Notes under the pieces: generated by a model
Database searches by the model: none
What the model was told of the DNA's origin: nothing
Seen by the model: the letters and a program-made list of their open reading frames with translations, nothing else
From: a virus
IMG/VR virus record: IMGVR_UViG_3300042887_000042
Location: 1-28,511 of that record
Length of the DNA: 28,511 nucleotides
Reading direction: 5' to 3' (one strand)
Made by a program: the position numbers and the translations under genes
Shown: positions 912-12,931 of the stretch, in pieces
How positions within the stretch are numbered: position 1 is the first letter of the stretch
Layout of the letters: every line of letters begins with the position of its first letter

Positions 912-934
912 GTTAAAAATTAAGGACGGATGAT

Positions 935-3346
935 ATGAGCATAGAGAAAAGTTTGTACGCGGCGCCAGAAGGCTTGGAAGCTTTAGCGGGCGAGCCGGAT
1001 ATTGAGATCGAGATTGAGGATCCAGAAGCGGTAAAAATTGAGATGGATGGTCTTGAGATTGAGATGCGCCAAGGCGAAGGCGAGGAAGACTTTAACGTAA
1101 ACCTCGCGGATGTTTTAGATGAAGGCACGATTCAGAGTTTGGCGGGTGATTTAGCAGAAGACATCTCAAACGACCTAGCCTCCCGCAAAGACTGGGAAGA
1201 GATGTATAAGGACGGCATTACGCTGTTGGGCCTGAAGTTCGAGGAAAGAACCGAGCCATGGGACGGCGCATGCGGTGTGTTTCATCCGATGATTACAGAG
1301 GCGGTGGTGCGGTTTCAGTCAGACACCATCATGGAAACGTTCCCAGCCAAAGGGCCGGTAAGAACGCAAATTATCGGTAAAGAAACTACCGAGAAGAAAG
1401 AAGCGGCGGTTCGTGTACAAGACGACATGAACTATCAACTCACGGAGAAAATGCCTGAGTACCGCCCTGAGCATGAGAAGATGCTGTGGAACCTGCCGTC
1501 AGCCGGTTCTGCGTTCAAGAAGGTGTATTACGACCCAAGCCTAGAGCGCCAAGTATCGGTGTTTATCCCAGCAGAAGACATTATTCTGCCCTACGGCACC
1601 AGTGAAATTAACACTTGCCATCGCATTACCCATGTAATGCGTAAGACCAAGAACGACCTGCTAAAGCTAATGAACGCAGGGTTCTATAAAGACATTGACC
1701 TAGGCGAGCCAAGCAAATTTACTAGCGACATCCAAGAGCGCAAGGATAAAGAGACTGGCTTCTCGGCAACGTACGACGACCGCTTTGAGATTTACGAAGC
1801 GCACGTTGATTTGGATTTACCGGGCTTTGAGGATAAAGATAAAGACGGAAACGTTACTGGTATTGGCTTGCCTTACGTAGTAACAATGGTTCGTGGTACC
1901 AATCAGGTTTTAGCAATTCGCAGAAACTGGAAAGAAGATGATCCTCTCAAACTTAAGCGTCACCATTTTGTGCATTACCAGTATATTCCTGGTTACGGTG
2001 CTTATGGCTTTGGACTATTTCACCTTATCGGTGGTTACGCGAAGAGTGCAACTAGTATCATGCGCCAGCTTGTTGATGCTGGTACTTTATCTAACCTTCC
2101 TGGAGGGTTAAAGTCCAGAGGGCTGCGCATCAAGGGCGACGACACCCCAATCGCGCCCGGAGAATTTAGAGATGTGGATGTAGGCTCTGGAGCTATACGC
2201 GACAACATCCTGCCACTTCCTTATAAGGAGCCTTCACTAGTCTTATCCGGTTTGATGGACAAGATTGTCGAAGAGGGGCGTCGTTTTGCGGCTACCTCGG
2301 ACATGAAGGTAGCGGATATGTCCAACCAAGCGCCGGTTGGAACCACACTCGCTATCCTCGAAAGAACCCTAAAAGTGATGTCGGCTGTTCAAGCCCGCGT
2401 TCACTACTCGATGAAACAAGAGTTACAACTTCTTGCCGGGATTATTCGTGACTACACAGACGACGAGTACACCTACGAGCCAGAAGAAGGCACACCACGC
2501 GCTAAGAAGGCTGACTACAGCAACGTAGAAGTATTACCTGTATCAGATCCCAACGCCGCTACTCTCTCCCAGCGAGTAGTCCAGTACCAAGCTGTTATTC
2601 AGTTGGCGCAGATGGCTCCGCAGATTTACAACATGCCGGTGCTCCATCGCCAGATGCTGGAGGTTTTGGGTATCAAACATGCGGACAAGCTAGTGCCGTT
2701 GGAAGAAGACCAGAAGCCAACCGATCCGATTTCAGAAAACCAGAACGCGTTACGCGGCAAGCCACTAAAGGCTTTTGCCTACCAAGACCACGAGGCTCAC
2801 ATCAAGGTCCACACCTCCGCCATGAACGACCCGATTGTTCAGCAACTCATTGGGCAGAACCCACAGGCAGCGGTGATCCAAGGGTCTATGCAAGCCCACA
2901 TCGCCGAGCACGTTGGATACGCCTACCGTGTCAAGATGCAGCAGGCTCTTGGCTTTGCCTTACCAGACCAAGAAGATGCGTTGCCAGAGGACATGGAGAG
3001 AGAACTTAGCCGCATGATGGCAGAAGCCGCACCGCAAGTGTTGGCGCAGTCTCAAGCCATGGTTGCTCAGCAACAAGCTGCACAGAACGCTCAAGACCCA
3101 GTTCTTCAGTTGCAACTGCAAGATCAGCAACGCAAGAACAAGGAGACCGAGATCAAGGAGAAAGACTTGATGATGAAGGCAGCGGCTAAAGCTGACGAGA
3201 TAAGGCTCAAAGAAGAGCAGATTGCCTCTACCGAGAGAATCGCGGGTATGAACGCGCAGATCAAGGTCATGGAAGATGCCAAGAATAGAGCGCTAAAAAT
3301 CACGGAAAAACAACTAGATACACGCAAAAAACCAACGAAGGAGTGA
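935..3346 (+). CDS. Portal protein (large, podovirus-like)
   Basis: This 803-residue protein starts at ATG 935, with AAGGA eight bases upstream. The central region carries motifs I associate with large portals of P22/N4-like phages: EPWDGACGVFHPMITEA near residues 105-121, a glycine-rich GYGAYGFGLFHLIGG segment, LVDAGTLSNLPGG, and a long helix around TTLAILERTLKVM. The last 110 or so residues are Gln-, Lys- and Glu-rich and probably form a long coiled coil, like the barrel of large portals. The N terminus holds an unusual alternating acidic/hydrophobic stretch (residues 22-44) that resembles the scaffold N terminus. Portals form the dodecameric ring at the packaging vertex. Position between terminase and scaffold supports the call; the exact subfamily is uncertain. 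Confidence 0.9.
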   Translation: MSIEKSLYAAPEGLEALAGEPDIEIEIEDPEAVKIEMDGLEIEMRQGEGEEDFNVNLADVLDEGTIQSLAGDLAEDISNDLASRKDWEEMYKDGITLLGLKFEERTEPWDGACGVFHPMITEAVVRFQSDTIMETFPAKGPVRTQIIGKETTEKKEAAVRVQDDMNYQLTEKMPEYRPEHEKMLWNLPSAGSAFKKVYYDPSLERQVSVFIPAEDIILPYGTSEINTCHRITHVMRKTKNDLLKLMNAGFYKDIDLGEPSKFTSDIQERKDKETGFSATYDDRFEIYEAHVDLDLPGFEDKDKDGNVTGIGLPYVVTMVRGTNQVLAIRRNWKEDDPLKLKRHHFVHYQYIPGYGAYGFGLFHLIGGYAKSATSIMRQLVDAGTLSNLPGGLKSRGLRIKGDDTPIAPGEFRDVDVGSGAIRDNILPLPYKEPSLVLSGLMDKIVEEGRRFAATSDMKVADMSNQAPVGTTLAILERTLKVMSAVQARVHYSMKQELQLLAGIIRDYTDDEYTYEPEEGTPRAKKADYSNVEVLPVSDPNAATLSQRVVQYQAVIQLAQMAPQIYNMPVLHRQMLEVLGIKHADKLVPLEEDQKPTDPISENQNALRGKPLKAFAYQDHEAHIKVHTSAMNDPIVQQLIGQNPQAAVIQGSMQAHIAEHVGYAYRVKMQQALGFALPDQEDALPEDMERELSRMMAEAAPQVLAQSQAMVAQQQAAQNAQDPVLQLQLQDQQRKNKETEIKEKDLMMKAAAKADEIRLKEEQIASTERIAGMNAQIKVMEDAKNRALKITEKQLDTRKKPTKE

Positions 3347-3349
3347 TGA

Positions 3350-3556
3350 ATGGACTTAATTGTGATGGATTTTATCGAGGCGATGCGAAGCAAGATTCGC
3401 CAAGATATGAACAACTTTACGGACGACTTGGCTACGGGCGCATGCCCGGACCATGCGGCCTATAAAGAGCTTTGCGGGGTTATTCGAGGTCTAGCCTATG
3501 CAGAGCGTCACCTACTTGACCTCGCTGAAAACATAGAGAAGGCTAACGATGAGTGA
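3350..3556 (+). CDS. Small hypothetical protein between portal and co-chaperonin
   Basis: I do not recognise this 68-residue protein. It starts at ATG 3350, three bases after the portal stop codon, with AAGGAG at 3338-3343. A second in-frame ATG lies at 3365, but the spacing favours the first. The sequence looks mainly helical and contains AYKELCGVIRGLAYAERHLLDLAENIEKA, which is amphipathic and could form a short helical hairpin or dimer. There is no signal peptide or membrane segment. Its end overlaps the next start by eight bases, so translation is probably coupled to the co-chaperonin. Small helical proteins of this kind near portals are common in aquatic phages, but no function can be assigned. 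Confidence 0.75.
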   Translation: MDLIVMDFIEAMRSKIRQDMNNFTDDLATGACPDHAAYKELCGVIRGLAYAERHLLDLAENIEKANDE

Positions 3557-3983
3557 AGCTATAGCAGTTCCGGAAAAAGAAATAATCCTGCCGCCGGGCG
3601 TATTTAAAGCCCCAGAAGTGGATCATGAGTATGAACAAGCCGAGCAAAAGGCAAAAGCGCTACCAGACCCAAAAGGCTGGCGGTTGCTATGCGCCTTGGT
3701 TGATGCAGGCGATACCTACGAAAGCGGTATTGTCAAATCTGACCAGACGGTAAAAATTGAGGAAATTACTTCCCCAGTCTTGTTCGTAGTCAAGCTTGGA
3801 CCAGATGCCTACAAAGACCCTGAAAAGTTTCCTGAAGGCGCGTGGTGTAAAGAAGGCGATTTCGTGATTACTCGCCCGTATACGGGTACCAGAATCATGA
3901 TCCACGGTAAGGAATTTCGCTTGATTAACGACGACCAAGTAGAAGCGACGGTCGAAGACCCACGTGGCATACAACGCGTTTAA
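3549..3983 (+). CDS. GroES-like co-chaperonin (Cpn10 family)
   Basis: This 144-residue protein has a Cpn10 layout preceded by about 38 extra residues. GWRLL (43-47) matches the first GroES strand. SGIVKSD (59-65) sits where the GroES mobile loop carries the GroEL-binding Ile-Val-Leu tripeptide; here it reads Ile61-Val62-Lys63. VVKLGPDAY (80-88) matches the VVAVGPG strand, and EGDFVITRPYTGTRIMIHGKEFRLINDDQVEATVED (102-137) matches the C-terminal KVGD...YAGTEVKIDGEEYLIL...DILAIVE block. Phage co-chaperonins such as T4 Gp31 cap host GroEL to help fold the capsid protein. Its place between portal and scaffold/coat genes fits that role. The lysine in the mobile loop and the insert PDAYKDPEKFPEGA are departures from bacterial GroES. 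Confidence 0.82.
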   Translation: MSEAIAVPEKEIILPPGVFKAPEVDHEYEQAEQKAKALPDPKGWRLLCALVDAGDTYESGIVKSDQTVKIEEITSPVLFVVKLGPDAYKDPEKFPEGAWCKEGDFVITRPYTGTRIMIHGKEFRLINDDQVEATVEDPRGIQRV

Positions 3984-3994
3984 AGGAGATAAAC

Positions 3995-4984
3995 ATGGCT
4001 GAATATGAAAAAGATGAATTTAAGTTTCCGCATGAAGTAGAGGAAGAACAGGCGGAAGCTAAGGGTAAACCCGAAGATGACATAGAAATTGACATTGATT
4101 CTGAGGGTGACGTATCCATTGAAATTGAAGACGATACCCCTATCCGCGATCGAACTGCTAAGCCTTTGGAAAGGGATGTTGAAGACCCAACGGAAGAAGA
4201 AATTGAGTCTTACACCAAAGGAGCGCAGGCTCGTATCAAGGAACTAACACACGCACGTCACGACGAGCGTAGAGCTAAAGAAGCTATTGCTCGTGAGAAA
4301 GAAGAGCTTGAGCGTTTAACTAAACAGATCCTTGAGGAGAACCGCAGGCTAAAAGAGTATGTAAAAACTGGCGAAGCCACGTATGCGGAGACTTTGCAAG
4401 CCAAAGCTGAAGCAGAGATGGAGATGGCGCGACGTAAATTTAAAGAAGCGCAAGAATCGTACGATGCTGAAACAATGCTGGAAGCACAAGAAGCATTGAC
4501 TGATGCAAAGATGAAACTTGAGAGCGCAAAAAATTTCAAGCCAACCCCTTTACAAACTCAAGAAGATGTTGTACAAACATACCAAACGGCTCCCGAAGCC
4601 CCCAAACTTGATGAAAAAACCTTGCGCTGGCAAGCAAAAAACCAGTGGTTTGGAACTCCGGGGTACGAAGAAATGACGGCCTTTGCTCTAGGGCTGCACC
4701 AAAAACTAGTGGCAACCGGGGTAGATCCCCGCTCAGACGATTATTTCGAGCGTGTCGACGCTCGCTTAAAACAGGTTTTCCCAGAGATGTTGGGAAATAC
4801 TGATACGGTTAAGGCTGAGCCGACTAAAAAACCTGCGAATGTTGTGGCTCCTGCCACCCGTTCATCGGGTGCCAAGAAAGTAATTAAGCTGACTGCGACG
4901 CAAGCTCGTCTTGCAGAGAAGTATGGTTTATCCCACAAACAATATGCTCAGGAAATTTTAAAATTGGAGGCTCAAAATGGCTAA
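3995..4984 (+). CDS. Capsid scaffolding protein
   Basis: This 329-residue protein starts at ATG 3995 with AAAGGAG at 3982-3988. It has the profile of a phage scaffold: a very acidic N terminus (residues 14-50), a long Glu/Lys/Ala-rich helical and coiled-coil stretch (roughly 70-180), and a short basic helical C terminus (about 293-329, containing KKVIKLTATQARLAEKYGLS) of the kind that binds coat protein. No protease motif is seen. It lies directly upstream of the coat region, as scaffolds do. Residues 28-47 alternate Ile/Val with Asp/Glu, like the portal N terminus. The function is inferred from composition and position more than from clear homology. Scaffold proteins nucleate procapsid assembly inside the shell and then leave or are degraded. 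Confidence 0.8.
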   Translation: MAEYEKDEFKFPHEVEEEQAEAKGKPEDDIEIDIDSEGDVSIEIEDDTPIRDRTAKPLERDVEDPTEEEIESYTKGAQARIKELTHARHDERRAKEAIAREKEELERLTKQILEENRRLKEYVKTGEATYAETLQAKAEAEMEMARRKFKEAQESYDAETMLEAQEALTDAKMKLESAKNFKPTPLQTQEDVVQTYQTAPEAPKLDEKTLRWQAKNQWFGTPGYEEMTAFALGLHQKLVATGVDPRSDDYFERVDARLKQVFPEMLGNTDTVKAEPTKKPANVVAPATRSSGAKKVIKLTATQARLAEKYGLSHKQYAQEILKLEAQNG

Positions 4985-6081: not shown

Positions 6082-6996
6082 ATGGCTATTTCACGCGCAC
6101 AACTACTGAAAGAGTTGCTCCCCGGTTTGAACGCATTGTTCGGTTTAGAGTACAAGCGTTACGGCGAAGAGCACAAAGAGATCTACGAAACTGAGAAATC
6201 AGAGCGTAGCTTCGAAGAAGAAACCAAGCTGTCTGGCTTCTCTGCTGCACCAGTCAAAAACGAAGGTTCTGCCATCGCTTATGACAATGCACAAGAGGCA
6301 TTTACAGCACGCTATAACCATGAAACCATTGCTTTAGGTTTCTCGATCACCGAAGAGGCGATTGAAGACAACCTGTATGACAGCCTTTCTGGTCGTTATA
6401 CCAAAGCATTGGCTCGTGCCATGGCTTATACCAAGCAAGTTAAAGCTGCTTCTGTATTGAACAACGGCTTCACCAACTCCAGCCAGTACTACGGCGGCGA
6501 CGGTGTACCTCTGTTCTCTACTCAGCATCCTTTGGTTTCTGGTGGTGTTAACAGCAATCGTCCTACCACTGGCGCTGACTTGAATGAAACTTCGTTGGAA
6601 AACGCAGTTATTCAGATTAGCTTGTGGACAGACGAGCGCGGCTTGCTCATTGCAGCAATGCCACGTAAGTTGATTATTCCTCCACAACTTCAGTTCGTTG
6701 CAACCCGTTTACTTGAGACTAATCTCCGTGTTGGTACCAATGACAACGACATCAACGCATTGAAGAACAATGGTTCGATCCCAGAAGGTTACGCAATTAA
6801 CCACTATCTGACCGACACCAATGCGTGGTTCTTGACCACCGACGTTCCTAACGGCATGAAGCACTTTGAGCGTATGCCTTTAAGCAACTCGATGGACGGA
6901 GACTTCGACACCGGTAACGTACGTTATAAGGCTCGTGAGCGTTATTCGTTCGGCTGGTCCGATCCTCTCGGTATGTTTGGTTCTCCTGGAGCCTAA
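6082..6996 (+). CDS. Major capsid protein, Mu gpT-like (HK97 fold)
   Basis: This 304-residue protein is almost the length of Mu gpT (about 305). It has AAGGAG at 6068-6073 before ATG 6082. Features shared with the gpT family include a strand reading ITEEAIEDNLYDSLSGRYTKALARAMAYTKQVKAASVLNNGF (the long spine helix and the residues leading to it), then DGVPLFSTQHPLVSGG. A later ALNPRK-like strand reads AMPRKLIIPPQLQFVATRLLET, and the protein ends FGWSDPLGMFGSPGA. HK97-fold coat proteins form the icosahedral shell. A strong terminator follows immediately, which fits a need for high expression and a defined transcript end. The identification is confident; maturation cleavage is not evident. Confidence 0.9.
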   Translation: MAISRAQLLKELLPGLNALFGLEYKRYGEEHKEIYETEKSERSFEEETKLSGFSAAPVKNEGSAIAYDNAQEAFTARYNHETIALGFSITEEAIEDNLYDSLSGRYTKALARAMAYTKQVKAASVLNNGFTNSSQYYGGDGVPLFSTQHPLVSGGVNSNRPTTGADLNETSLENAVIQISLWTDERGLLIAAMPRKLIIPPQLQFVATRLLETNLRVGTNDNDINALKNNGSIPEGYAINHYLTDTNAWFLTTDVPNGMKHFERMPLSNSMDGDFDTGNVRYKARERYSFGWSDPLGMFGSPGA

Positions 6997-6998
6997 AG

Positions 6999-7024
6999 AA
7001 AAGGGGACTCCGGTCCCCTTTTTT
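6999..7024 (+). terminator. Intrinsic terminator after the capsid gene
   Basis: AAAAGGGGAC (6999-7008) pairs perfectly with GTCCCCTTTT (7013-7022) around a four-base TCCG loop, and the T run continues to 7024. The GC-rich core plus U tract is a textbook Rho-independent terminator. It begins two bases after the capsid stop codon and is the only strong terminator I see in the window. Confidence 0.93.
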
Positions 7025-7025
7025 G

Positions 7026-7053
7026 TTGCATTTATTTTTATTTGATGTAAGAT
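7026..7053 (+). promoter_or_regulatory. Possible sigma70-type promoter after the terminator
   Basis: TTGCAT (7026-7031) and TAAGAT (7048-7053) are separated by 16 bases in an A+T-rich stretch immediately after the terminator. Both hexamers are imperfect (about three and four of six matches). The place is right for a promoter restarting transcription for the downstream block, but the match is weak and could be chance. Confidence 0.35.
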
Positions 7054-7061
7054 TTGTTTAT

Positions 7062-7115
7062 CTGGGTGAATCGCTTATCAAACCGCCCCAGCGGACGCAT
7101 ACACGATTGATAGGC
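7062..7115 (+). promoter_or_regulatory. Structured leader: inverted repeat with nested hairpin
   Basis: GCTTATCAA (7073-7081) can pair with TTGATAGGC (7107-7115) with one G-T wobble. Inside it, CCGC (7083-7086) pairs with GCGG (7091-7094) around CCCA. An alternative pairing is possible between CTGGG (7062-7066) and CCCAG (7087-7091). The structure ends 12 bases before the ribosome binding site of the next gene. It could be an RNA leader structure or a DNA operator, since the half-sites lie 34 bp centre to centre. No known riboswitch is recognised. Confidence 0.4.
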
Positions 7116-7142
7116 TGAACTTTGTATGAAGGACAATTTATT

Positions 7143-7649
7143 ATGGCATTAGCAACTACCTCTAGCGTATGGCGCTCCACAGGTGGAGATCAAACACGCA
7201 CAGCTTACGCTGGCTCCATGGTTATGGCAGCCCAGTTTTATATTGCAAATACTGCAGCAACTTCAAACGTAGTAACTTCTTCAGCTACTGGTGCTCCACC
7301 GGTAATTCTTCCTGCTGGCGCAGTTGTTACGGAAGTTATTGTTTCTAGTGGTGGTGGCGGTAACGCTACTGCTAACATAGGGTTTACCCCAATTATTGGT
7401 GTAGGTCCAGGGCAAACTACTACTCTTGGTACAAACGTTCCTCAAGCATTTGTTGCTGCTGGAAACGTTTCTGCTCGTACGGTGTTTACCGTTGCTTCTG
7501 CTACTGGCGGAGCTTCTTTGGGTAATGTAGCTAACGCAACTAACTTAGTTGTTGTAACTTGTGCTCAAGGTGCCGCTAACGCTATTGCTGGTGTTGTTTC
7601 TGGCGACATAATTTATTACGTAGCTGACACTGGCGCAGAAAACGTCTAA
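7143..7649 (+). CDS. Probable virion structural protein
   Basis: I choose ATG 7143 because GAAGGA (7128-7133) lies nine bases upstream; the in-frame TTG at 7122 lies upstream of that site. The resulting 168-residue protein is rich in Ala, Gly, Thr, Val and Asn with almost no charged residues. It contains a glycine run VSSGGGGNATANIGFTPIIG and ends GDIIYYVADTGAENV. This suggests a beta-sandwich surface protein of the virion. It is the first gene after the capsid terminator and leader, so it heads the next transcript. It has no membrane segment. I know of similar unnamed proteins in aquatic phages but no defined function; a head decoration or fibre-like role is possible. Confidence 0.65.
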   Translation: MALATTSSVWRSTGGDQTRTAYAGSMVMAAQFYIANTAATSNVVTSSATGAPPVILPAGAVVTEVIVSSGGGGNATANIGFTPIIGVGPGQTTTLGTNVPQAFVAAGNVSARTVFTVASATGGASLGNVANATNLVVVTCAQGAANAIAGVVSGDIIYYVADTGAENV

Positions 7650-7661
7650 CGGGAGGCCAAC

Positions 7662-7991
7662 ATGCGTCCTATTACCGTAACGGTACCTGCCGGGGGTGGT
7701 AACTCCGCAGTGATTCCTTTGGATCACTACATCAGCCCATTTAATGTTGGTATAGCGGTTACTACAACAGACTCTACTAACCTGAGCTTTTTGGTTCAGC
7801 AGACGTATGCTAATGTCTTTGCTAGTGACTTTAATGCGGCTACAACTACATGGTTTACCACAACTATGTCTGCTAGTAACGCAAACGCCACGGGTAACAT
7901 TGCCTATCCAGTAACGGCAGTTCGTTTGAACATGTCTGCTGGCGACGGTGATGCCACTATGACGGTTATTCAAGCTGGTGTAGCGAGTTAA
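7662..7991 (+). CDS. Small probable structural protein
   Basis: This 109-residue protein has a strong GGGAGG site (7651-7656) and ATG 7662. It begins MRPITVTVPAGGGNSAVIPLDHYISPFNVGIAV and ends AVRLNMSAGDGDATMTVIQAGVAS. Alternating Thr/Val strands and a near absence of lysine point to an all-beta fold. The start IPLDHYISPFNVGIAV with the ending ATMTVIQAG suggests a single compact jelly-roll or Ig-like domain. It shares the low-charge composition of the preceding gene, and the two are probably made from one transcript. It may be a second shell or vertex decoration protein, though no homologue of known function is recognised. Confidence 0.6.
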   Translation: MRPITVTVPAGGGNSAVIPLDHYISPFNVGIAVTTTDSTNLSFLVQQTYANVFASDFNAATTTWFTTTMSASNANATGNIAYPVTAVRLNMSAGDGDATMTVIQAGVAS

Positions 7992-7993
7992 TC

Positions 7994-8314
7994 ATGGCTA
8001 AGTCTCCTGCGTGGCAACGAAAAGAAGGCAAAAACCCTGAGGGCGGCTTAAACGCCAAGGGCAGGGCTTCTTACAATGCATCTAATCCGGGTAAACCCGG
8101 ACTTAAGCGCCCACAACCAGAAGGCGGTTCTCGTCGCGATTCGTTCTGTGCCCGTATGAAAGGTATGAAGCGAAAGCTAACAAGCGCCAAGACCGCTAAC
8201 GACCCCAACAGCAGAATCAACAAATCTCTTCGCGCATGGAACTGTAAAGAAGGTGGTGCGGTTCGTGGTGGTGGGTGTGAGGTGCGTGGGAAGACGAGAG
8301 GGAAAATTGTTTGA
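7994..8314 (+). CDS. Small basic phage protein with C-terminal GKTRG tag (DUF6321-like)
   Basis: This 106-residue, strongly basic protein begins SPAWQRKEGKNPEGGLNAKGRASYNASNPGKPGLKRPQPEGG. I associate that sequence with the uncharacterised family DUF6321; the name is from memory. It then has RRDSFCARMKGMKRKLTSAKTANDPNSRINKSLRAWNC, another conserved block of that family. The last 14 residues, GGCEVRGKTRGKIV, match the ends of the genes finishing at 9062 and 9433. Arg/Lys richness suggests nucleic-acid binding, possibly DNA held in the head, but this is inference. There is no convincing ribosome binding site. The start lies three bases after the previous stop, so translation is probably coupled. 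Confidence 0.75.
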   Translation: MAKSPAWQRKEGKNPEGGLNAKGRASYNASNPGKPGLKRPQPEGGSRRDSFCARMKGMKRKLTSAKTANDPNSRINKSLRAWNCKEGGAVRGGGCEVRGKTRGKIV

Positions 8315-8559
8315 TGGAATTGAACGTCATCTGGAACGTAGTCTTGACTGCGATAGTCGCTGCGTTAGGCTTTGTGTTAAAAGAAAAGTTTAATGAAATC
8401 AATCGCTTGGGTATTCTGTTAAACAGAACCAGAGAGGAGGTTGCTCGTGACCACATTACACGTGCAGAAGTTAAAGCAGACTTGCAAGCAATTCGTGAGC
8501 ATTTTGACGACGGCTTTGCAAGACTTGAAGCAAAAATTGACAAACTGGCTGAACGTTAG
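8314..8559 (+). CDS. Small membrane-anchored coiled-coil protein
   Basis: I start at ATG 8314, which overlaps the preceding TGA stop as ATGA, rather than at the TTG one codon earlier. The 81-residue product has one hydrophobic segment at residues 5-23 (VIWNVVLTAIVAALGFVLK). A charged amphipathic helix follows, with REEVARDHITRAEVKADLQAIREHFDDGFARLEAKIDKL. That is the form of a type II membrane protein with a coiled-coil stalk. Such a protein could be a holin or spanin accessory, or a virion protein that reaches the host membrane. It is far from the lysis genes at 22003-23410, which makes an infection-stage role possible. The function is unknown. Confidence 0.65.
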   Translation: MELNVIWNVVLTAIVAALGFVLKEKFNEINRLGILLNRTREEVARDHITRAEVKADLQAIREHFDDGFARLEAKIDKLAER

Positions 8560-8571
8560 AAAGGGAACAAA

Positions 8572-8757
8572 ATGAAACATTCAGATATGGCAAAAGACAA
8601 ACCCATGATGAAAAAAGTCGCTGCTGAAGCCGTTAAAGGCCATGAGAAGCGCATGCACAAGATGGCTAAAGGCGGTGTAACTCGTGCCGATGGCTGCGTA
8701 ACTAAAGGCCATACTAAGGGCAAAATGATTTCAATGAAGGGCGGCGGTTACTGCTAA
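8572..8757 (+). CDS. Tiny Lys/Gly-rich protein with internal ADGC tag
   Basis: This 61-residue basic protein has AAAGGGA ahead of ATG 8572. Its first part, MKKVAAEAVKGHEKRMHKM, is a basic helix with histidines. It is followed by AKGGVTRADGCVTKGHTKGKM (tag at residues 38-53) and a short MKGGGYC end. The tag matches those of its neighbours except that His replaces Lys in GKTKG. Two cysteines (42 and 61) and three histidines are present, but they do not form a clear metal-binding pattern. Its stop overlaps the next start (TAATG). It belongs to the tagged small-protein island; no function is known. Confidence 0.7.
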   Translation: MKHSDMAKDKPMMKKVAAEAVKGHEKRMHKMAKGGVTRADGCVTKGHTKGKMISMKGGGYC

Positions 8758-9062
8758 TGGACGAATATACCGCTAACCCCCTTCAGACTGAGCGCGAAGC
8801 ACAACGTGTGTTGCGCAAAATGAATGCTGAAAAAGTCCAAGACGCAGAAGCTAAGCAAAAAGCCGCCGAAGCGCGTGACTTAGCTAGGCGGTTTGTTACT
8901 GAAGGGAAAAGTGTGTTTGGCGGTGGCAGTGCTGATTTAGAAAAAGGCATGATGGGCGGGCGTATGAAAAAGCCCACCTATAAAGCTGGCGGTACAGTTA
9001 GTGCTTCATCCCGTGCTGACGGTATAGCTCAACGGGGTAAAACGAGAGGAAGGATAGTGTAA
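8757..9062 (+). CDS. Small helical protein with C-terminal ADG/GKTRG tag
   Basis: This 101-residue protein starts at the TAATG overlap at 8757. The N-terminal half is an Ala/Glu/Lys/Arg-rich helix (EREAQRVLRKMNAEKVQDAEAKQKAAEARDLARRF) likely to form a coiled coil. A glycine-rich linker FGGGSADLEKGMMGGRMKKP follows. The end reads YKAGGTVSASSRADGIAQRGKTRGRIV, the same GG-x-V ... RADG ... GKTRG module as in the next gene. Its stop overlaps the following ATG. The helix-linker-tag layout suggests that the tag is a docking or targeting element attached to different bodies. No enzyme motif is visible. Confidence 0.72.
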   Translation: MDEYTANPLQTEREAQRVLRKMNAEKVQDAEAKQKAAEARDLARRFVTEGKSVFGGGSADLEKGMMGGRMKKPTYKAGGTVSASSRADGIAQRGKTRGRIV

Positions 9063-9433
9063 TGTTAGGGTTAGCCGCGCGTATGGCAGCAAAAATGGCT
9101 GCTAAAAAAATGGGCAAGCAAGCTGCAAAAGAGGCAGACGAAATCCCACGTTACACACAATCAAAAGGCTTTAAGGCTCTTGAGAAAGCACAAAAGAATA
9201 GCGGCCCAGAAGCCGCTATTAGAGACATGGAAAAAGGCGCTGCAGTATCATTAGGCTCAGCACTTTTAGGAGCCACTGGTAAATCATCGCTTGGAGAAAA
9301 AGAAGAGGCGTCTCCGCCTAAAGAAGAAGCAAGCGAAAAAGAATATCGCCGTGGTGGTACCGTTCGTTCTTCCGCTTCCAAACGTGCTGATGGTTGCGCT
9401 ATCAAAGGCAAAACGAAAGGCAGAATGATATGA
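9062..9433 (+). CDS. Small protein with amphipathic N terminus and C-terminal tag
   Basis: This 123-residue protein starts at the TAATG overlap. The first 22 or so residues (MLGLAARMAAKMAAKKMGKQAAK) form an Ala/Lys amphipathic helix resembling a membrane-active or nucleic-acid-binding peptide. The middle contains YTQSKGFKALEKAQKN and a hydrophobic GAAVSLGSALLGATG stretch, then an acidic EKEEASPPKEEASEKE linker. The last part, YRRGGTVRSSASKRADGCAIKGKTKGRMI, is the clearest copy of the island's tag. The stop overlaps the next start as ATGA. The layout could suit an internal head or ejected protein, which is inference. Confidence 0.7.
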   Translation: MLGLAARMAAKMAAKKMGKQAAKEADEIPRYTQSKGFKALEKAQKNSGPEAAIRDMEKGAAVSLGSALLGATGKSSLGEKEEASPPKEEASEKEYRRGGTVRSSASKRADGCAIKGKTKGRMI

Positions 9434-9720
9434 GAGCGTCTCGTGGAATGGGGGCAATAATGCCCAACAAAATGCCCGGTAAAAAGATCATTAAGCGTAA
9501 GGACAAACCGCAAGATGTGGAAATGTATGCCGAAGGTGGCAAAGTTAAATCCAAGGTTAATGAGGCTGGTAACTATACGAAGCCTAGTATGCGCAAGTCT
9601 TTATTTGAGAGTATTAAAAACTCGGCTGTGCAAGGCACTGCGGCGGGTCAGTGGTCTGCTCGCAAAGCGCAATTGCTAGCCAAGAAATACAAAGAGAAAG
9701 GTGGGGGTTATCGTGGCTGA
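9430..9720 (+). CDS. Small basic protein with GQWSARKAQLLAKKY motif
   Basis: I start at ATG 9430, which overlaps the preceding TGA stop, rather than at an in-frame ATG 36 bases upstream that lies well inside the preceding gene. The 96-residue product has KMPGKKIIKRKDKPQDVEMYAEGGKVKSKV, then GNYTKPSMRKSLFESIKNSAVQGTAAGQWSARKAQLLAKKYKEKGGGY. The second part resembles a short uncharacterised family found in bacteria and aquatic phages, which I remember under DUF5872 without certainty. In bacteria I recall this motif fused to the motif of the gene at 9917. The basic charge suggests DNA association, but no function is established. Confidence 0.72.
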   Translation: MRASRGMGAIMPNKMPGKKIIKRKDKPQDVEMYAEGGKVKSKVNEAGNYTKPSMRKSLFESIKNSAVQGTAAGQWSARKAQLLAKKYKEKGGGYRG

Positions 9721-9889
9721 AAAATGGATACAGAAAGCGATTAAGAAACCCGGCGCTCTGCGTGAGTCGATGGGCGTTAAAAAGGGAGAGAAGATCCCTG
9801 CCAAGAAGCTTGCTGCGGCGGCTAAAAAGCCCGGCAAGATGGGGCAACGTGCGAGGTTAGCTCAGACTCTGTCGAAGCTAAAAAAATAA
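9713..9889 (+). CDS. Tiny basic protein (WIQKAIKKPGALRESMG family)
   Basis: GTG 9713 is chosen over GTG 9701. Initiation at 9713 places the AAAGGTGGG stretch about nine bases upstream and gives the clean N terminus MAEKWIQKAIKKPGALRESMGVKKGEKIPAKKLAAAAKKPGKMGQRARLAQTL. The product has 58 residues with a very high lysine content. It overlaps the end of the previous gene by eight bases. I recognise the sequence as a recurrent unnamed small protein of phages, sometimes found as a C-terminal piece of larger proteins. It looks like two short helices joined by a Gly/Pro turn. The chemistry suggests nucleic-acid binding; the role is unknown. Confidence 0.68.
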   Translation: MAEKWIQKAIKKPGALRESMGVKKGEKIPAKKLAAAAKKPGKMGQRARLAQTLSKLKK

Positions 9890-9904
9890 TGTTTGCGTGG
9901 CTTT

Positions 9905-9909
9905 GGAGG
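9905..9909 (+). promoter_or_regulatory. Ribosome binding site fixing the GTG start at 9917
   Basis: GGAGG at 9905-9909 lies seven bases before GTG 9917. The competing ATG at 9889 in another frame has no comparable site. This decides which of two overlapping frames is read. Confidence 0.75.
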
Positions 9910-9916
9910 ATTTTAG

Positions 9917-10165
9917 GTGGCACTAGCAAAACCCCAGCGCAGTCTCAAGTCTTGGACCAAACAGGAATGGACAACCAAGTCAGGGAAAAAGTCGTCCGAA
10001 ACAGGCGAACGGTATCTGCCAAAAAGAGCAATACAGGCGCTAAGCCCAAGCGAATACGCAGCAACGACTCGGGCAAAACGAGCCGGAAAAGCCCAAGGAA
10101 AGCAGTTTGTCCCGCAGCCTCCAAAGGTAAAGCAAAAGGTAAAACCATACCGAAAGGTTAAATAA
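9917..10165 (+). CDS. Small basic protein with TGERYLPKRAI motif
   Basis: The 82-residue product starts at GTG 9917 with GGAGG seven bases upstream. It reads SLKSWTKQEWTTKSGKKSS, then TGERYLPKRAIQALSPSEYAATTRAKRAGKAQGKQFV, then a basic end QKVKPYRKVK. This is a recognisable small family in bacteria and phages (W-x2-W-x-TKSGK ... GERYLP). I recall it fused behind a GQWSARKAQLLA domain in bacteria, here encoded separately at 9430. The alternative frame from 9889 lacks a ribosome binding site and family motifs. The stop overlaps the adaptor start (TAATG). The function is unknown; nucleic-acid binding is plausible from the charge. Confidence 0.78.
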   Translation: MALAKPQRSLKSWTKQEWTTKSGKKSSETGERYLPKRAIQALSPSEYAATTRAKRAGKAQGKQFVPQPPKVKQKVKPYRKVK

Positions 10166-10917
10166 TGACTGTCGTTGCAAATGCTACCTTTAATCTAGAC
10201 CTCTCGGAAATAGTCGAAGAGGCTTTTGAGCGTTGTGGCTCAGAGCTACGCTCGGGCTACGATTTAAAGACAGCGAGACGCTCTCTTAACTTGCTGTTTG
10301 CTGATTGGGCAAACAGGGGCATTAACTTGTGGACGGTTGAGCAAGGACAGATTTCGTTGGTGCAAGGGCAGAATACCTATGATTTACCCGTAGATACAGT
10401 TGACTTATTGGAACATGTTATTAGGACTAACCCTGGTGTACAAAACAACCAAGCAGACCTAACGATAACCCGTATCTCAGTTTCCACCTACGCCACTATC
10501 CCAAACAAACTGCAACAGGCTCGCCCTATTCAGGTATGGGTAAATCGCCAGTCTGGGGCAGATTACGCAGGAGATTTAACTACCTCTCCGCCTGCTGGTA
10601 TTGATAAACCAAAGATTGTTGTTTGGCCTACCCCGGATCAAGGAACGCAACAAAACCCTTATTACACGTTTGTGTACTGGCGGTTGCGGAGAATCCATGA
10701 TGCCGGCAACGGCGTTAATACGATGGACGTCCCGTTTCGCTTTTTGCCTTGCATGATTGCTGGCTTGTCATATTACCTGTCGGTTAAGCTTCCTGAAGCC
10801 CAAGCTCGGATTGGGATGCTTAAAGCGCAGTACGACGAAGCTTGGCAGTTAGCTGCTGATGAAGATCGTGAAAAAGCCGCGGTTAGGTTTGTGCCTCGCC
10901 GCATGTTTATTACTTAA
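10165..10917 (+). CDS. Head-to-tail adaptor (P22 gp4 / T7 gp11-like)
   Basis: This 250-residue protein begins with a helical segment (LSEIVEEAFERCGSELRSGYDLKTARRSLNLLFADWANRGINLWTVEQG). It continues with a beta part that includes QGQNTYDLPVDTVDLLEHVI, then WVNRQSGADYAGDL and KPKIVVWPTPDQ. It ends with helices (FRFLPCMIAGLSYYLSVKLPEAQARIGMLKAQYDEAWQLAADEDREKA). This helix-strand-helix pattern with a YxLP turn is what I know from adaptor proteins that sit below the portal in short-tailed phages. It presumably extends the portal and joins the nozzle encoded at 23422. A second adaptor-like gene is found at 11838. The assignment to adaptors is good; the exact counterpart is less sure. Confidence 0.8.
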   Translation: MTVVANATFNLDLSEIVEEAFERCGSELRSGYDLKTARRSLNLLFADWANRGINLWTVEQGQISLVQGQNTYDLPVDTVDLLEHVIRTNPGVQNNQADLTITRISVSTYATIPNKLQQARPIQVWVNRQSGADYAGDLTTSPPAGIDKPKIVVWPTPDQGTQQNPYYTFVYWRLRRIHDAGNGVNTMDVPFRFLPCMIAGLSYYLSVKLPEAQARIGMLKAQYDEAWQLAADEDREKAAVRFVPRRMFIT

Positions 10918-10927
10918 GGAATAGCGT

Positions 10928-11350
10928 GTGCCAAACAGATTTGCTTCCGGTAAGTATGCGATTTCGCAGTGCGACCGCTGCAACTTTCGTTTTAAGTTAA
11001 AGGTGCTAAAGACACAGATAGTAAAGACCAAGCCATATCAGATACGTGTTTGTCCTACGTGCTGGGATCCAGATCACCCACAGTTGCAGTTAGGTATGTA
11101 CCCTGTGGAAGATCCGCAAGCGTTGCGTAACCCAAGACCAGATAATACGTACTATCAGGCTGGCTATACAGGATTGCAGTTAAACCAGAACGCGGGGTCA
11201 ACGCTTGATGGCTTTGGTGATCCGACGATGGGTAGTAGGGTATTTCAATGGGGGTGGAACCCTGTTGGGGGTGGGTCAAACTGGCCTCAAACGCCAAATG
11301 ACTTGGTTTCTGGTGTAGTTTTGGGTACAGTTACGGTAACGACAACTTAG
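10928..11350 (+). CDS. Small zinc-binding phage protein
   Basis: The 140-residue product starts at GTG 10928 with AAGGA at 10915-10919. The N-terminal 45 residues hold two CxxC pairs (C15/C18 and C42/C45) in QCDRCNFRFKLK ... IRVCPTCWDPDHPQLQLG, a zinc-ribbon arrangement. The rest is Gly/Pro/Asn-rich with PRPDNTYYQAGYTGLQLNQN, followed by a Trp/Gly-rich stretch and a Thr/Val tail. I know this N-terminal module from phages, located beside adaptor genes as here. It is probably a minor virion or tail-assembly protein; alternatively the ribbon binds nucleic acid during packaging. An antisense open frame across it is a shadow. Confidence 0.75.
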   Translation: MPNRFASGKYAISQCDRCNFRFKLKVLKTQIVKTKPYQIRVCPTCWDPDHPQLQLGMYPVEDPQALRNPRPDNTYYQAGYTGLQLNQNAGSTLDGFGDPTMGSRVFQWGWNPVGGGSNWPQTPNDLVSGVVLGTVTVTTT

Positions 11351-11359
11351 GAGAAAGAC

Positions 11360-11572
11360 ATGTTTAAAAAAGGCGCTGACGGTGTAACTAAACAGGGCAA
11401 AACCAAAGGTAAAAACCTTGGCGATACAGGCCCATCTGTAGGAATTCAGCAAGGCGGTAAAGGCAAAGGAGCCAAAACCGTTACTAACGAAAGCTTGAAG
11501 TCTATGGGGCGTAATATGGCTCGCGTAGCTAATCAAGGAATGATGCGCAAAAGCGCAGGAAGAGGACGTTAA
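11360..11572 (+). CDS. Tiny basic protein with N-terminal ADG/GKTKG tag
   Basis: This 70-residue protein has TAGGAG before ATG 11360. It begins MFKKGADGVTKQGKTKGKNLG, which is the island tag placed at the N terminus rather than the C terminus. A Gly/Lys-rich stretch (IQQGGKGKGAKTV) and a short helix SLKSMGRNMARVANQGMMRKSAGRGR follow. There are no cysteines or membrane segments. The position between the two adaptor genes extends the island beyond the 7994-9433 group. The very basic, low-complexity sequence suggests an intrinsically disordered, DNA- or scaffold-associated protein. The function is unknown. Confidence 0.68.
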   Translation: MFKKGADGVTKQGKTKGKNLGDTGPSVGIQQGGKGKGAKTVTNESLKSMGRNMARVANQGMMRKSAGRGR

Positions 11573-11574
11573 TC

Positions 11575-11838
11575 ATGGCTAAATATAGTATGAAACGGGA
11601 CGGTAAAGAAGTCGGTCCGGCTTCTGTTTACGCAGAACCCCACACAATGACGGGACAGAAAGTGACCGTAGCTGGAGCTATTAAAGATCAGTCCGGCGCT
11701 AAAGTCATGGACGAGCTTGACATTTCTCTTGGCAAATTAAGCAAAAACACCGGTAAAGGCGTAAAGACTGACGGCATTAAAATCCGTGGTACAGGCGCTG
11801 CTACTAAAGGCGTTATGGCTAGAGGGCCGATGGCATAA
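11575..11838 (+). CDS. Small hypothetical protein (MAKYSMKRDGKEVGPASVYAEPHTM)
   Basis: This 87-residue protein has GAGGA ahead of ATG 11575. It begins KYSMKRDGKEVGPASVYAEPHTMTGQKVTVAGAI and continues MDELDISLGKLSKNTGKGVKTDGIKIRGTGAATKGVMARGPMA. The final Lys/Gly-rich segment KTDGIKIRGTGAATKG is a distant look-alike of the island's ADGC-x3-GKTKG tag, but I do not count it as a true copy. No known domain is recognised, although the start of the sequence is one I have seen in other aquatic phages. It overlaps the next start (TAATG), so it is coupled to the second adaptor gene. Confidence 0.68.
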   Translation: MAKYSMKRDGKEVGPASVYAEPHTMTGQKVTVAGAIKDQSGAKVMDELDISLGKLSKNTGKGVKTDGIKIRGTGAATKGVMARGPMA

Positions 11839-12485
11839 TGAATTACACACAGTTAACGCAAGCGATTATTGACTATGCTGAGTCTGACGAACAGACTTTC
11901 GTAGACAACATCCCGCTTTTTGTCCAGCAATGTGAAGAGCGGGTATATAACGCCGTTCAGATCCCAGCCATTCGCAAGAATCAGGTTGGTAACTTCACTC
12001 AGGGCGACAAGTACCTTGCGTTACCGAATGACTATTTAGCCTCGTTTTCTATGGCGGTAATTTTGGCTGACGGGTCTCAGGAGTTTTTGATTGACAAAGA
12101 CGTCAACTTTATACGGCAAGCCTATCCCAGCCCAACAGACGAAGGCGTACCTCGTTACTACGCCCAGTTTGAGCCGTACACATACATTATTGGACCCACC
12201 CCAGACGACAACTACCAAGTAGAACTGCATTATTACTACTACCCACAGTCAATTGTGACTGCCAATACGTCATGGTTGGGCGATAATTTTGAGACTGTTT
12301 TACTCTATGGCTCGTTGCGTGAAGCCGTCATCTTCCAAAAGGGAGAGCAAGACATGGTTACGTATTACGAGCAGAAGTATCAAGAATCCTTAGCATTACT
12401 CAAAGACTTGGGTGATGGTAAAGATAGACGTAGCGCATACCGTGATGGACAATTACGATTACCCGTACCAGGGCCTGTTAGATAA
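11838..12485 (+). CDS. Second head-to-tail adaptor-like protein
   Basis: This 215-residue protein starts at the TAATG overlap. It begins MNYTQLTQAIIDYAESDEQTFVDNIPLFVQQCEERVYNAVQIPAIRK, followed by a GDKYLALPNDYLASFSMAVIL strand pair. Mixed beta segments with a notable run of tyrosines (HYYYYPQ) come next, then helices (NFETVLLYGSLREAVIFQKGEQDMVTYYEQKYQESLALLKDL). The helix, Y-x-LP turn and terminal helix order resembles the gene at 10165, so the two may be distant paralogues or sequential rings between portal and nozzle. The end RLPVPGPVR is extended and could insert into the neighbouring ring. The fold class is likely; the exact place in the tail is inferred. Confidence 0.72.
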   Translation: MNYTQLTQAIIDYAESDEQTFVDNIPLFVQQCEERVYNAVQIPAIRKNQVGNFTQGDKYLALPNDYLASFSMAVILADGSQEFLIDKDVNFIRQAYPSPTDEGVPRYYAQFEPYTYIIGPTPDDNYQVELHYYYYPQSIVTANTSWLGDNFETVLLYGSLREAVIFQKGEQDMVTYYEQKYQESLALLKDLGDGKDRRSAYRDGQLRLPVPGPVR

Positions 12486-12499
12486 TTTAGGAGCATTTT

Positions 12500-12931
12500 A
12501 TGGCAATCACCCAAGCAATGGCTACCAGCTTCAAGGTTGAACTCTTGAATGGTCAGCACAATTTTTCTTCAAACACATTTAAGTTGGCGCTGTATACCAG
12601 CTCTGCGACTTTGAATGAGAACACAACTGCATACACTACCAGCAACGAAGTGCCTTCAACTGGCAACTACTCGGCTGGCGGTAATACTTTGACTGTTAGC
12701 GTAACCCCAACGAACTCTGGAAACGTAGCTTATATCTCGTTTACTAACACTTCGTGGTTAAACGCAACAATCACTGCCAATGGCGCTTTGATTTATAACT
12801 CTAACTTGTCAAACGCAGCAGTTTGCGTACTGGCATTTGGTGGGGATAAAACATCGACCAATGGTACATTTGCAGTTAACTTCCCAACCGCAGACGCATC
12901 CAACGCTATCATCCGCTTGACCGCAAGTTAA
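12500..12931 (+). CDS. Probable virion protein of unknown role
   Basis: This 143-residue protein has TAGGAG ahead of ATG 12500. It begins TSFKVELLNGQHNFSSNTFKLALYTSSATLNENTTAYTTSNEVPSTGNYSAGGNTLT and ends GGDKTSTNGTFAVNFPTADASNAIIRLTAS. I recognise this as a common but unnamed family in tailed phages, usually found next to tail-fibre genes. The pattern of short Thr/Asn-rich strands with few charges suggests an all-beta structural protein. It directly precedes the first fibre gene by nine bases and shares the TAAGGAG spacing, so it may be a fibre-attachment or baseplate-like part. No catalytic residues are visible. Confidence 0.7.
   Translation: MAITQAMATSFKVELLNGQHNFSSNTFKLALYTSSATLNENTTAYTTSNEVPSTGNYSAGGNTLTVSVTPTNSGNVAYISFTNTSWLNATITANGALIYNSNLSNAAVCVLAFGGDKTSTNGTFAVNFPTADASNAIIRLTAS

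Follow-up and report, generated by a model that had tools for sequence, protein, structure and literature searches.

Organisation of the island

The window is the whole stretch of 28,511 nt that was analysed (IMG/VR record IMGVR_UViG_3300042887_000042), and it comes from a phage whose relatives include the Planktothrix Pag-Yong1 and Pelagibacter HTVC023P-type phages. Its head-neck block contains, at 7994-11838, an island of ten ORFs of 58-123 aa, all of which are open as a preliminary description of the window had listed them, and the island is real. The features are given below, genes being named by their first position, and homologues were counted in the 26 loci that extend 6 kb or more beyond the capsid gene.

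6997-7024, plus strand: strong terminator-like hairpin behind the major capsid gene, with a stem of 12 pairs and a T run
7994-8314, plus strand: DUF6321 protein (PF19846), 106 aa; homologue in 26 of 26 loci
8246-8311, plus strand: tag of 7994, added after WNC; C-terminus KEGGAVRGGGCEVRGKTRGKIV
8300-8305, plus strand: GGGAAA, the Gly-Lys codons of the 7994 tag and ribosome-binding site of 8314 (codon bias, 236 genes)
8314-8559, plus strand: 81 aa, hydrophobic N-terminus and coiled coil (from sequence); 8 of 26 loci
8572-8757, plus strand: basic protein, 61 aa, internal tag form (8668-8754), end GHTKGKMISMKGGGYC
8757-9062, plus strand: tagged protein, 101 aa, tag 8982-9059 (HMM E 2.5e-13), C-terminus KAGGTVSASSRADGIAQRGKTRGRIV
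9048-9053, plus strand: GGAAGG, the Gly-Arg codons of the 8757 tag and ribosome-binding site of 9062 (codon bias, 236 genes)
9062-9433, plus strand: tagged protein, 123 aa, tag 9347-9430 (HMM E 6.3e-13), C-terminus RRGGTVRSSASKRADGCAIKGKTKGRMI
9430-9720, plus strand: two-module protein, 96 aa (PHROG 17747, E 5e-27); 24 of 26 loci; RGMG leader, YAEGG hinge, then GNYTKP..GQWSARKAQ..GGGYR module (supported by module combinations)
9713-9889, plus strand: KPGALR module, 58 aa, GTG start (PHROG 20603, E 1.2e-4; PHROG 15706, E 3.5e-5); 6 of 26 loci
9917-10165, plus strand: GERYLP family, 82 aa, GTG start (PHROG 14910, E 2e-33); 18 of 26 loci
10165-10917: adaptor-like gene; 25 of 26 loci
10928-11350: Cys4 zinc-ribbon-like gene; 25 of 26 loci
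11360-11572, plus strand: 70 aa, tag core at the N-terminus (11360-11413, MFKKGADGVTKQGKTKGK); 12 of 26 loci
11575-11838, plus strand: conserved protein, 87 aa; 22 of 26 loci

Neighbouring genes overlap by 1 nt at 7994/8314, 8572/8757 and 8757/9062, by 4 nt at 9062/9430 and by 8 nt at 9430/9713, and gaps of 12 nt (8559-8572), 27 nt (9889-9917) and 2 nt (11572-11575) separate others. The genes had been described as overlapping or abutting, but they do not make a single continuous run, which is interrupted after the eighth small gene by the two larger genes at 10165 and 10928. Two frames overlap at 9889-10165, and by the match to PHROG 14910 and the homologue counts (the 9917 frame has homologues in 18 of 26 loci, the 9889 frame in 4) the gene is the 9917 frame. 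The products had been called mostly basic, which agrees with a predicted pI of 9.9-11.5 in nine of the ten (6.1 in protein 8314), and one had been called a membrane coiled-coil protein, which fits protein 8314 with its hydrophobic N-terminus and coiled coil. On both strands of 6900-12600 there were 11 terminator-like matches compared to 7.2 (sd 2.8) in shuffles, and promoter-like matches in that region numbered 3 compared to 6.2.

The gene set is conserved: when the 26 loci were examined for the loss or reordering that the preliminary description had named as its test, homologues recurred in an order that is the same by eye, and the gene at 11838 has a homologue in 23 of them. Most families are kept in order in these relatives but 9713 moves, its homologue being located after 9917 in several of the six loci that have it. 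It also holds that no member has a defined function; of all Pfam families, DUF6321 alone scored above its cut-off in these proteins. Weak Pfam matches of island proteins (DUF4148, LUD, MRP-L27 and others) were all under cut-offs and were dropped.

A shared C-terminal tag

What had been overlooked is that the proteins 7994, 8757 and 9062 end in a common peptide with the consensus GG-x-V-x-SASxRADG[IC]AxxGKT[KR]G[KR]xx-COOH, which is also found near the C-terminus of 8572 and at the N-terminus of 11360. This tag is 16-24 residues long (RADG[IC]AxxGKT[KR]G[KR]xx-COOH) and is preceded by a (Y/F/M)xxGG hinge. The 11360 family has 30 homologues, and in those displayed the tag core is likewise near the N-terminus. 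The C-terminus of 11575, DGIKIRGTGAATKGVMARGPMA, is tag-like yet distinct when the C-termini of 82 homologues are compared. In the open-access literature the tag letters were not found in print, and a search of that literature on DUF6321 gave no description of the tag.

Among the 57 distinct C-terminal HMM matches of the capsid-sampled set, for which the HMM seeds had been chosen by regular expression, the core residues G, G and T are invariant and the lysine of GKT is K in 54 and H in 3; natural tags show both H and R at this position. The final residue is mostly V, I, L, C or Y. A cysteine is found at -12 in 104 tags of the larger set, at -1 in 52, at both in 2 and at neither in 70, and in the 57 capsid-sampled tags the corresponding numbers are 25, 16, 0 and 16, this association having been counted without correction for shared descent.

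Host protease adaptors recognise C-terminal motifs, those of the ClpX type being an example. The exact distance of the tag from the C-terminus and its V, I, L, C or Y ending in most cases would suit a tail that is read by such an adaptor, or cut by a phage protease, to mark temporary assembly factors. We regard this as quite unlikely because the conserved block goes 16-20 residues inward, because the tag is away from the C-terminus in 8572 and 11360, and because no gene for a head-maturation or prohead protease was evident in those window proteins that were scanned.

The tag has a mean charge of +3.9 and the attached bodies are net positive in 198 of 230, which raises the possibility that these are basic DNA-condensing or packaging aids in which the tag binds phosphate or DNA; a location in the head would still be possible. 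The charge and composition of the island proteins would be compatible with DNA-condensing (histone-like) proteins, and the tag fits the pattern GxxxxGKT with its invariant G, G and T and near-invariant K. In P-loop NTPases the Walker A motif GxxxxGK[ST] has an essential lysine and strand and helix flanks, and a Walker B motif is present in addition. The tag was rejected as a P-loop NTPase, since H or R replaces K, it lies at the extreme C-terminus and it is modelled as unstructured (pLDDT about 33), with no strand or helix around GxxxxGKT. The replacements of K and the lack of a modelled strand or helix also weigh against nucleic-acid binding, as does the fact that exact residues, a set C-terminal distance and a hydrophobic or Cys end are unnecessary for basic DNA binding. 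No known DNA-binding family was over its cut-off among the island proteins and 83 tagged representatives. Lysines of T4 internal proteins do contact DNA phosphates, according to the part of PMC3012670 drawn on, and overall we consider nucleic-acid binding unlikely.

Distribution of the tag and diversity of the tagged bodies

The tag in its strict C-terminal form is present in 21 of the 26 complete islands, with 0 to 3 copies per island and at least two in 11, and any GxxxxG[KHRL]T form is present in 25 of 26 (minus strand, 0). The tag HMM matched 98 ORFs spread over 41 loci (the window, Pag-Yong1 and 39 capsid-sampled ones), all on the coding strand and none on the opposite one, which is beyond chance. 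In the record of Pag-Yong1, a cultured phage, the tagged protein is encoded at 51312-52238 and DUF6321 at 58226-58471. In 11 near-complete relatives (0.68 Mb) there were 30 tag matches, in 10 of the 11 genomes; every one is on the strand of the capsid gene and 1.6-7.7 kb downstream of it, with none elsewhere in those genomes. Genes of this phage accompany the tag in 116 of 118 tag loci, the remaining two being about 1 kb long.

From 80 capsid-sampled loci, the window and loci fetched by pattern, at least 236 distinct tagged proteins were collected, seven duplicate loci of the same contig and the window's own copy (L001) having been dropped beforehand; these protein and locus collections are samples of viral sequences and their totals are minima. 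Percentages at the motif columns are biased in this set, because the fetch pattern fixed A-D-G, G-K-T and G and the regular expression needs part of the motif; the 57 matches of the capsid-sampled set alone have the same conserved columns. The 230 bodies of at least 30 aa fall into 117 clusters, 82 of them singletons, which is possibly an overcount since ORFs were begun at the first possible start codon and some N-terminal extensions are false. A peptide carried by many otherwise unrelated bodies looks like an address label, and whatever its role, being fixed, confined to the island and placed on unrelated bodies it calls for a binding partner encoded by the phage itself or by its host. Counted against an address is that 5 of the 26 islands are without a strict tag though their capsid proteins are about equally similar.

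As these genes lie between the decoration and adaptor genes, they might instead encode minor neck or tail parts or chaperones, with the tag docking on the adaptor. Their position around both adaptor genes is conserved and 11360 and 11575 immediately precede the second adaptor; neck proteins, however, are folded and conserved, whereas the tagged bodies form 117 clusters, no Pfam domain found in 83 representatives was credible, and the strict tag varies from 0 to 3 copies per island, so that we find a neck or tail role quite unlikely. The Pfam scan of these representatives gave single weak matches only (E no better than 7e-4) and PADLOC likewise (no better than 5e-3), and defence-related or enzymatic bodies had no support in the two scans. 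The 83 were scanned jointly against PHROGs, and 29 plus one extra locus protein were rescanned singly to identify the protein behind each match.

Codon use in the tag

At synonymous tag sites the third-base agreement between genomes is 0.396, saturation being 0.294, and the residues are near-fixed; synonymous variation at conserved residues points to selection on the peptide. Codon bias in the tag is confined to the last Gly-Lys/Arg codons, which are at the same time the ribosome-binding site of the next gene. The Gly(-4) codon is GGA or GGG in 159 of 236, compared to 10 of 236 at Gly(-8), giving Shine-Dalgarno-like purine codons, and a start codon follows the tagged gene at -4 to +11 nt in 229 of 236. 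Tags are more alike within a genome than in shuffles (0.754 against 0.687; 0 of 2000 shuffles), but this was rejected as receptor co-adaptation because third bases show the same trend (0.474 within genomes, 0.396 between them), so recent copying accounts for at least part of the likeness.

This double use of codons, the nearby start codons and the within-genome likeness that extends to third bases are what one would see if the tag were a DNA-level device, namely a recombination handle and translation-coupling end for cassette swaps with a near-idle peptide. Such a device is the least probable of the readings considered, given that the other third bases of the tag are near saturation with the residues fixed, and that the 11360 family keeps the same core at its N-terminus.

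DUF6321 and other modules

The 7994 protein is by Pfam score a member of DUF6321 (PF19846, T4-GC119 of cyanomyoviruses), with 66.6 bits against a cut-off of 28.5 over residues 12-82 and the whole model. In all 8 matched PHROGs, which are 99 to 928 positions long, DUF6321 is at or near the C-terminal end. The AlphaFold2 model of 7994, made with 31 relatives, had a mean pLDDT of 63.7, and a Foldseek search of the PDB returned nothing similar. A protein resembling 8314 adjoins a DUF6321-like gene in DSL-LC04. The untagged neighbours in the island are interchangeable modules that meet at a (Y/F/M)xxGG hinge; the KPGALR module of 9713, for example, is fused in relatives behind the RGMG leader.

Two observations were counted against the cargo-loading explanation given below. 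Only 3 of 46 DUF6321 ORFs of the capsid-sampled loci carry the tag, so that as a rule the two signals are separate. The GERYLP family of 9917 is also present in HMO-2011-type phages and pelagiphages, and members of the 9430, 9917 or DUF6321 families are near lysis, packaging or replication genes, without capsid adjacency, in several pelagiphages and in HMO-2011.

Virion evidence and proposed explanation

Statements on published work draw on parts of PMC3012670, PMC9026906, PMC10611076, PMC9599517, PMC12753301, PMC3037559, PMC10665884 and PMC9146016. The published virion proteome of S-CREM2 includes gp137 (4 peptides), a protein that has DUF6321 (44.7 bits) at its C-terminal end. The DUF6321 protein is not among the 30 virion proteins given for S-SZBM1, by numbering matched here, and this was counted against the address reading set out below. 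One tagged protein has an SKKQ leader that resembles the N-terminal ends of two PHROGs annotated as virion structural protein.

As a separate observation, the label 'similar to Synechococcus phage S-SM1 protein' is on T4-GC119 and otherwise, where T4-named, on gp13, 14, 15, 18, 19 and 20, in these cases always on virion proteins, and it is absent from gp16 and gp17; this distribution suggests that T4-GC119 is in the S-SM1 virion.

Internal-head or injected proteins, as the preliminary description had proposed, probably remain the best reading of the island. It is aided by the presence of a DUF6321 protein in one published virion proteome; the shared tag and the shuffling of modules had not been part of it. 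For the tag itself the best reading, to which we give slightly less than an even chance, is an exchangeable C-terminal address that carries cargo proteins into the virion. The island would be a cargo cassette made during head assembly, its products small, basic and mostly unfolded, with bodies of fast turnover and exchangeable C-terminal modules of which the tag is the commonest and DUF6321 (7994) may be a second of the same kind. A receptor from the same phage family, for which the acidic scaffold (3995-4984), the capsid lining and the portal are candidates, would bind the tag and carry the attached body into the prohead, and the cargo would then be ejected from the head with the DNA. The sequences show the tag, its position and confinement to the island, its conservation at the protein level, the diversity of the bodies, the ribosome-binding use of its final codons and the shuffling of modules; virion targeting, receptor, ejection and any effect on the host are inferred. 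More doubtful is the wider proposal that a widespread family of aquatic phages has a modular C-terminal address code of its own (GKTKG tag, DUF6321, GNYTKP and KPGALR with the YxxGG hinge) that loads interchangeable, fast-evolving, host-delivered cargo, a single Cys at -12 or -1, almost never both, acting in docking.

Should the tag prove to be an address for virion loading, a phage group common in aquatic habitats would have found, independently, a second answer to the task for which T4 has its capsid targeting sequence. Well above a hundred 'hypothetical' bodies would gain a function together, the search for injected proteins that act in anti-defence or take-over would have a place to start, and a short peptide added to the C-terminus of chosen proteins could serve to pack them into phage heads.

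Comparison with known systems

In T4, IPI, IPII, IPIII and Alt share a capsid targeting sequence that takes them to the prohead core (parts of PMC9026906 and PMC3012670). The likeness is that one short terminal peptide is on several fast-changing, unlike proteins of one phage, as on 7994, 8757 and 9062 in the window and in the 11 of 26 islands with two or more strict tags. The T4 sequence, however, is N-terminal, about 10 residues long and cut by gp21 after L/I-x-E, whereas the tag, a putative signal, is C-terminal, 16-24 residues long and unrelated in sequence, with no protease recognised in the window proteins scanned. The key T4 positions are 4, 7, 8 and 10 (M-x-x-[YF]-x-x-[FY]-[IL]-x-E) in the sources drawn on, and such a start is absent from all ten island proteins and matched by regular expression in 4 of 10471 six-frame ORFs of relatives. 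The S-CREM1 DUF6321 protein begins MKTYNDFITE, which fits these positions, but a clear start of this type is present in only 2 of 14 T4-like DUF6321 ORFs, which was counted against the address reading.

T4-like cyanophages likewise have DUF6321 at the C-terminus of varied bodies, the gene being mostly between gp16 and gp17, whereas here it is small, stand-alone and near the capsid gene, with the tag added. For the ejection proteins of podoviruses and giant phages (P22, SPN3US) no shared C-terminal peptide was met in the abstracts consulted; these proteins are packed in the head and injected with the DNA, which is the fate proposed for the cargo here.

A shared C-terminal peptide in the island

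Ten small ORFs, named here by their start coordinates, had been placed between the capsid gene and the second adaptor gene by the preliminary description, and they were borne out as described. When the ten proteins were compared side by side, variants of GG-x-V-x-SASxRADGxAxxGKTxGxxV were found to close 7994, 8757 and 9062, while in 8572 this block sits shortly upstream of the C-terminus and in 11360 its core is at the N-terminus. We refer to this peptide (consensus GG-x-V-x-SASxRADG[IC]AxxGKT[KR]G[KR]xx-COOH) as the tag and to the rest of a tagged protein as the body. The window comes from a virus record and spans 28,511 bases; its genes are ordered as follows.

First listed gene: large terminase
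Between large terminase and GroES-like gene: portal
3549-3983: gene for a GroES-like co-chaperonin, after portal and before scaffold
3995: probable scaffold
6082-6996: major capsid protein
Between major capsid protein and the island: head decoration-like genes
10165 and 11838: two adaptor-like genes
10928-11350: protein of 140 aa whose N-terminus is zinc-ribbon-like (Cys4; CDRC..CPTC), between both adaptor genes
3' part of the window: tail fibres, endolysin, then the late structural block
26380-27816: late protein of 478 aa with several xxGG(I/V) repeats (YAASGGIVALANGG)

GroES is annotated at a similar position in DSL-LC04, HTVC023P, CRP-902, QDWS535 and Pag-Yong1. The zinc-ribbon-like protein is present in 25 of 26 relatives and has no match among the PHROGs, the phage protein profile families. 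The window capsid protein shares 74% identity with its counterpart in Planktothrix phage Pag-Yong1, 65% with that of lake phage DSL-LC04, 63% with those of Pelagibacter phages HTVC023P/HTVC027P, 56% with those of Roseobacter phages CRP-901/902 and 51% with that of Alcaligenes phage QDWS535. The GenBank records of Planktothrix Pag-Yong1 (OL906435.1), Synechococcus MinM2 (OQ594354.1) and Planktothrix Pra-JY27 (PP438419.1) are each 65,014 bp with identical match values, and they look like a single genome deposited under three hosts.

Occurrence of the tag

An HMM made from 52 C-terminal seeds of fetched relatives detected 98 ORFs, every one on the coding strand when the loci were oriented by the capsid gene, and zero tags were found on the minus strand of the loci of 26 relatives. 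These 26 are the relatives whose sequence extends 6 kb or more beyond the capsid gene. A strict C-terminal tag is present in 21 of them and occurs at least twice in 11, and a GxxxxG[KHRL]T form of some kind is seen in 25. Searching the whole records of 11 near-complete relatives gave 30 tag hits, distributed over 10 of these records, all on the same strand as the capsid gene and 1,576-7,688 bases downstream of it (27 of the 30 within 5 kb), and none outside this capsid-downstream region. The Pag-Yong1 record gave no match in that search; its tag (GCAKRGRTKGRFI) was detected by peptide and regex search. A pattern scan of viral sequences gave at least 118 loci, and 116 of the 118 listed carry genes of this phage type, the other two being about 1 kb long. 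When applied to 84,980 genomes of bacteria and archaea, the pattern matched nine contigs, of which four (L206, L208, L209 and L213) have an ORF terminating in the tag, and all of these except L213 also bear genes of this phage type. In L213, a Patulibacter MAG contig, a GC-rich acyltransferase-like frame and the C-terminal 30 residues of a tagged phage protein form one fusion (162-2003, minus strand), probably a chimeric assembly.

The tag is conserved as a protein sequence. Across 236 distinct proteins that bear it, the synonymous codon entropy at conserved residues is mostly little below background, the codons of Thr(-6), counted from the C-terminus, being ACC in 103, ACT in 74, ACA in 33 and ACG in 26, and the third bases of identical residues agree between genomes at 0.396 versus 0.294 expected at saturation. 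Among 57 distinct tails sampled through the capsid protein, four residues never vary (G(-13), G(-8), T(-6), G(-4)), and D(-14) and K(-7) are each present in 54. Cys is at -12 in 25 of these tails, at -1 in 16, at neither in 16 and at both in 0; the corresponding numbers in the larger tagged set are 104, 52, 70 and 2. We are nearly certain that the tag is a real, protein-level signal. The exception in codon use lies at its last codons: GGA or GGG is used at Gly(-4) in 159/236 and at Gly(-8) in 10/236, AGG or AGA at Arg(-3) in 52/104 and at Arg(-9) in 4/135, and a start codon lies -4 to +11 nt after the tag in 229/236. With this purine-codon bias and the nearby start codon, the last tag codons thus double as the ribosome-binding site of the next gene.

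Bodies and untagged neighbours

Clustering of the 230 bodies of at least 30 aa gives 117 groups, including 82 singletons; the bodies are basic, with a net positive charge in 198 cases, are aromatic-poor and contain 0.1% Cys. No credible Pfam or PADLOC match was found for any of 83 tagged representatives. One tagged representative has an SKKQ leader matching residues 1-42 of PHROG 22033 and 1-41 of PHROG 25121, both annotated 'virion structural protein'. The largest body cluster (21 loci; e.g. L138:1466-1969) has a recurring stretch F..AF..AR..GDk.F.w.GKkY.T.

The untagged island neighbours are shuffled modules. In relatives the RGMG leader of 9430 precedes the GNYTKP module, also of 9430 (72 distinct ORFs), KPGALR of 9713 (7) or DUF6321 (PF19846), the domain of 7994 (2), and in S-SSM7 a single 994-residue protein has the SKKQ leader at one end and DUF6321 at the other. 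In ORFs with at least 20 residues before the module, a [YFMVK]xxGG hinge lies ahead of the tag in 166/231, of GNYTKP in 67/72, of KPGALR in 16/18, of DUF6321 in 5/18 and of the GERYLP family of 9917 in 5/26, compared with 113/3,874 random 18-mers. The repeats of the late 26380-27816 protein resemble this hinge. The 9430 and 9917 families also co-occur, sometimes with DUF6321, in the unrelated marine phages HTVC034P, HTVC035P, Lederberg, HTVC115P and HMO-2011, where they sit away from the capsid gene.

DUF6321 and virions

Among phage records, 496 contain DUF6321, most of them from cyanophages. In T4-like loci its gene follows gp16 in 12/14 and has both gp16 and gp17 around it in 10/14, and the domain reaches the profile's last position in seven of eight matched PHROGs and stops 18 positions short in one. 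It forms the C-terminus of S-CREM2 gp137 (490 aa; 44.7 bits), for which the published virion table gives 4 unique peptides and 4.1% coverage; its neighbour gp136 is there with 7-8 (8 unique peptides). The latter is Lys-rich and has the N-terminus MQTFSMFFSE. The N-termini of the DUF6321 proteins of S-CREM1 (MKTYNDFITE) and S-SZBM1 (MKTFKQYITE) fit the residue letters of the T4 capsid-targeting sequence at positions 4, 7, 8 and 10. PMC9026906 describes these as the key positions in T4. As contrary evidence, the S-SZBM1 protein, with locus numbers matched via gene order and length, is missing from the list of 30 proteins in the virion of that phage, although two of its neighbours are present; DUF6321 was thus detected in the virion in one of two proteomes.

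Proposed role and comparison with T4

The island would be translated late in infection as a coupled series, placing a C-terminal module on each body. For the steps past translation we infer that a phage component would bind the tag, the acidic scaffold being a natural partner for a basic peptide, that the bodies would be enclosed during head formation, and that after packaging they would lie alongside the DNA and exit with it. The earlier suggestion of internal head proteins, or proteins injected with DNA, is supported in part: the genes are a conserved set, and that the tag loads proteins into the virion we put at somewhat short of an even chance.

PMC3012670 describes the internal proteins of T4 as highly diverse defence proteins in which the targeting sequence alone is conserved; there, likewise, bodies turn over behind a fixed peptide. 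The tag shares with T4 the idea of a common targeting peptide, but it has neither the N-terminal place nor the residues that define the T4 sequence, and therefore we do not class it with the T4 capsid-targeting sequence, although by analogy it may work like it.
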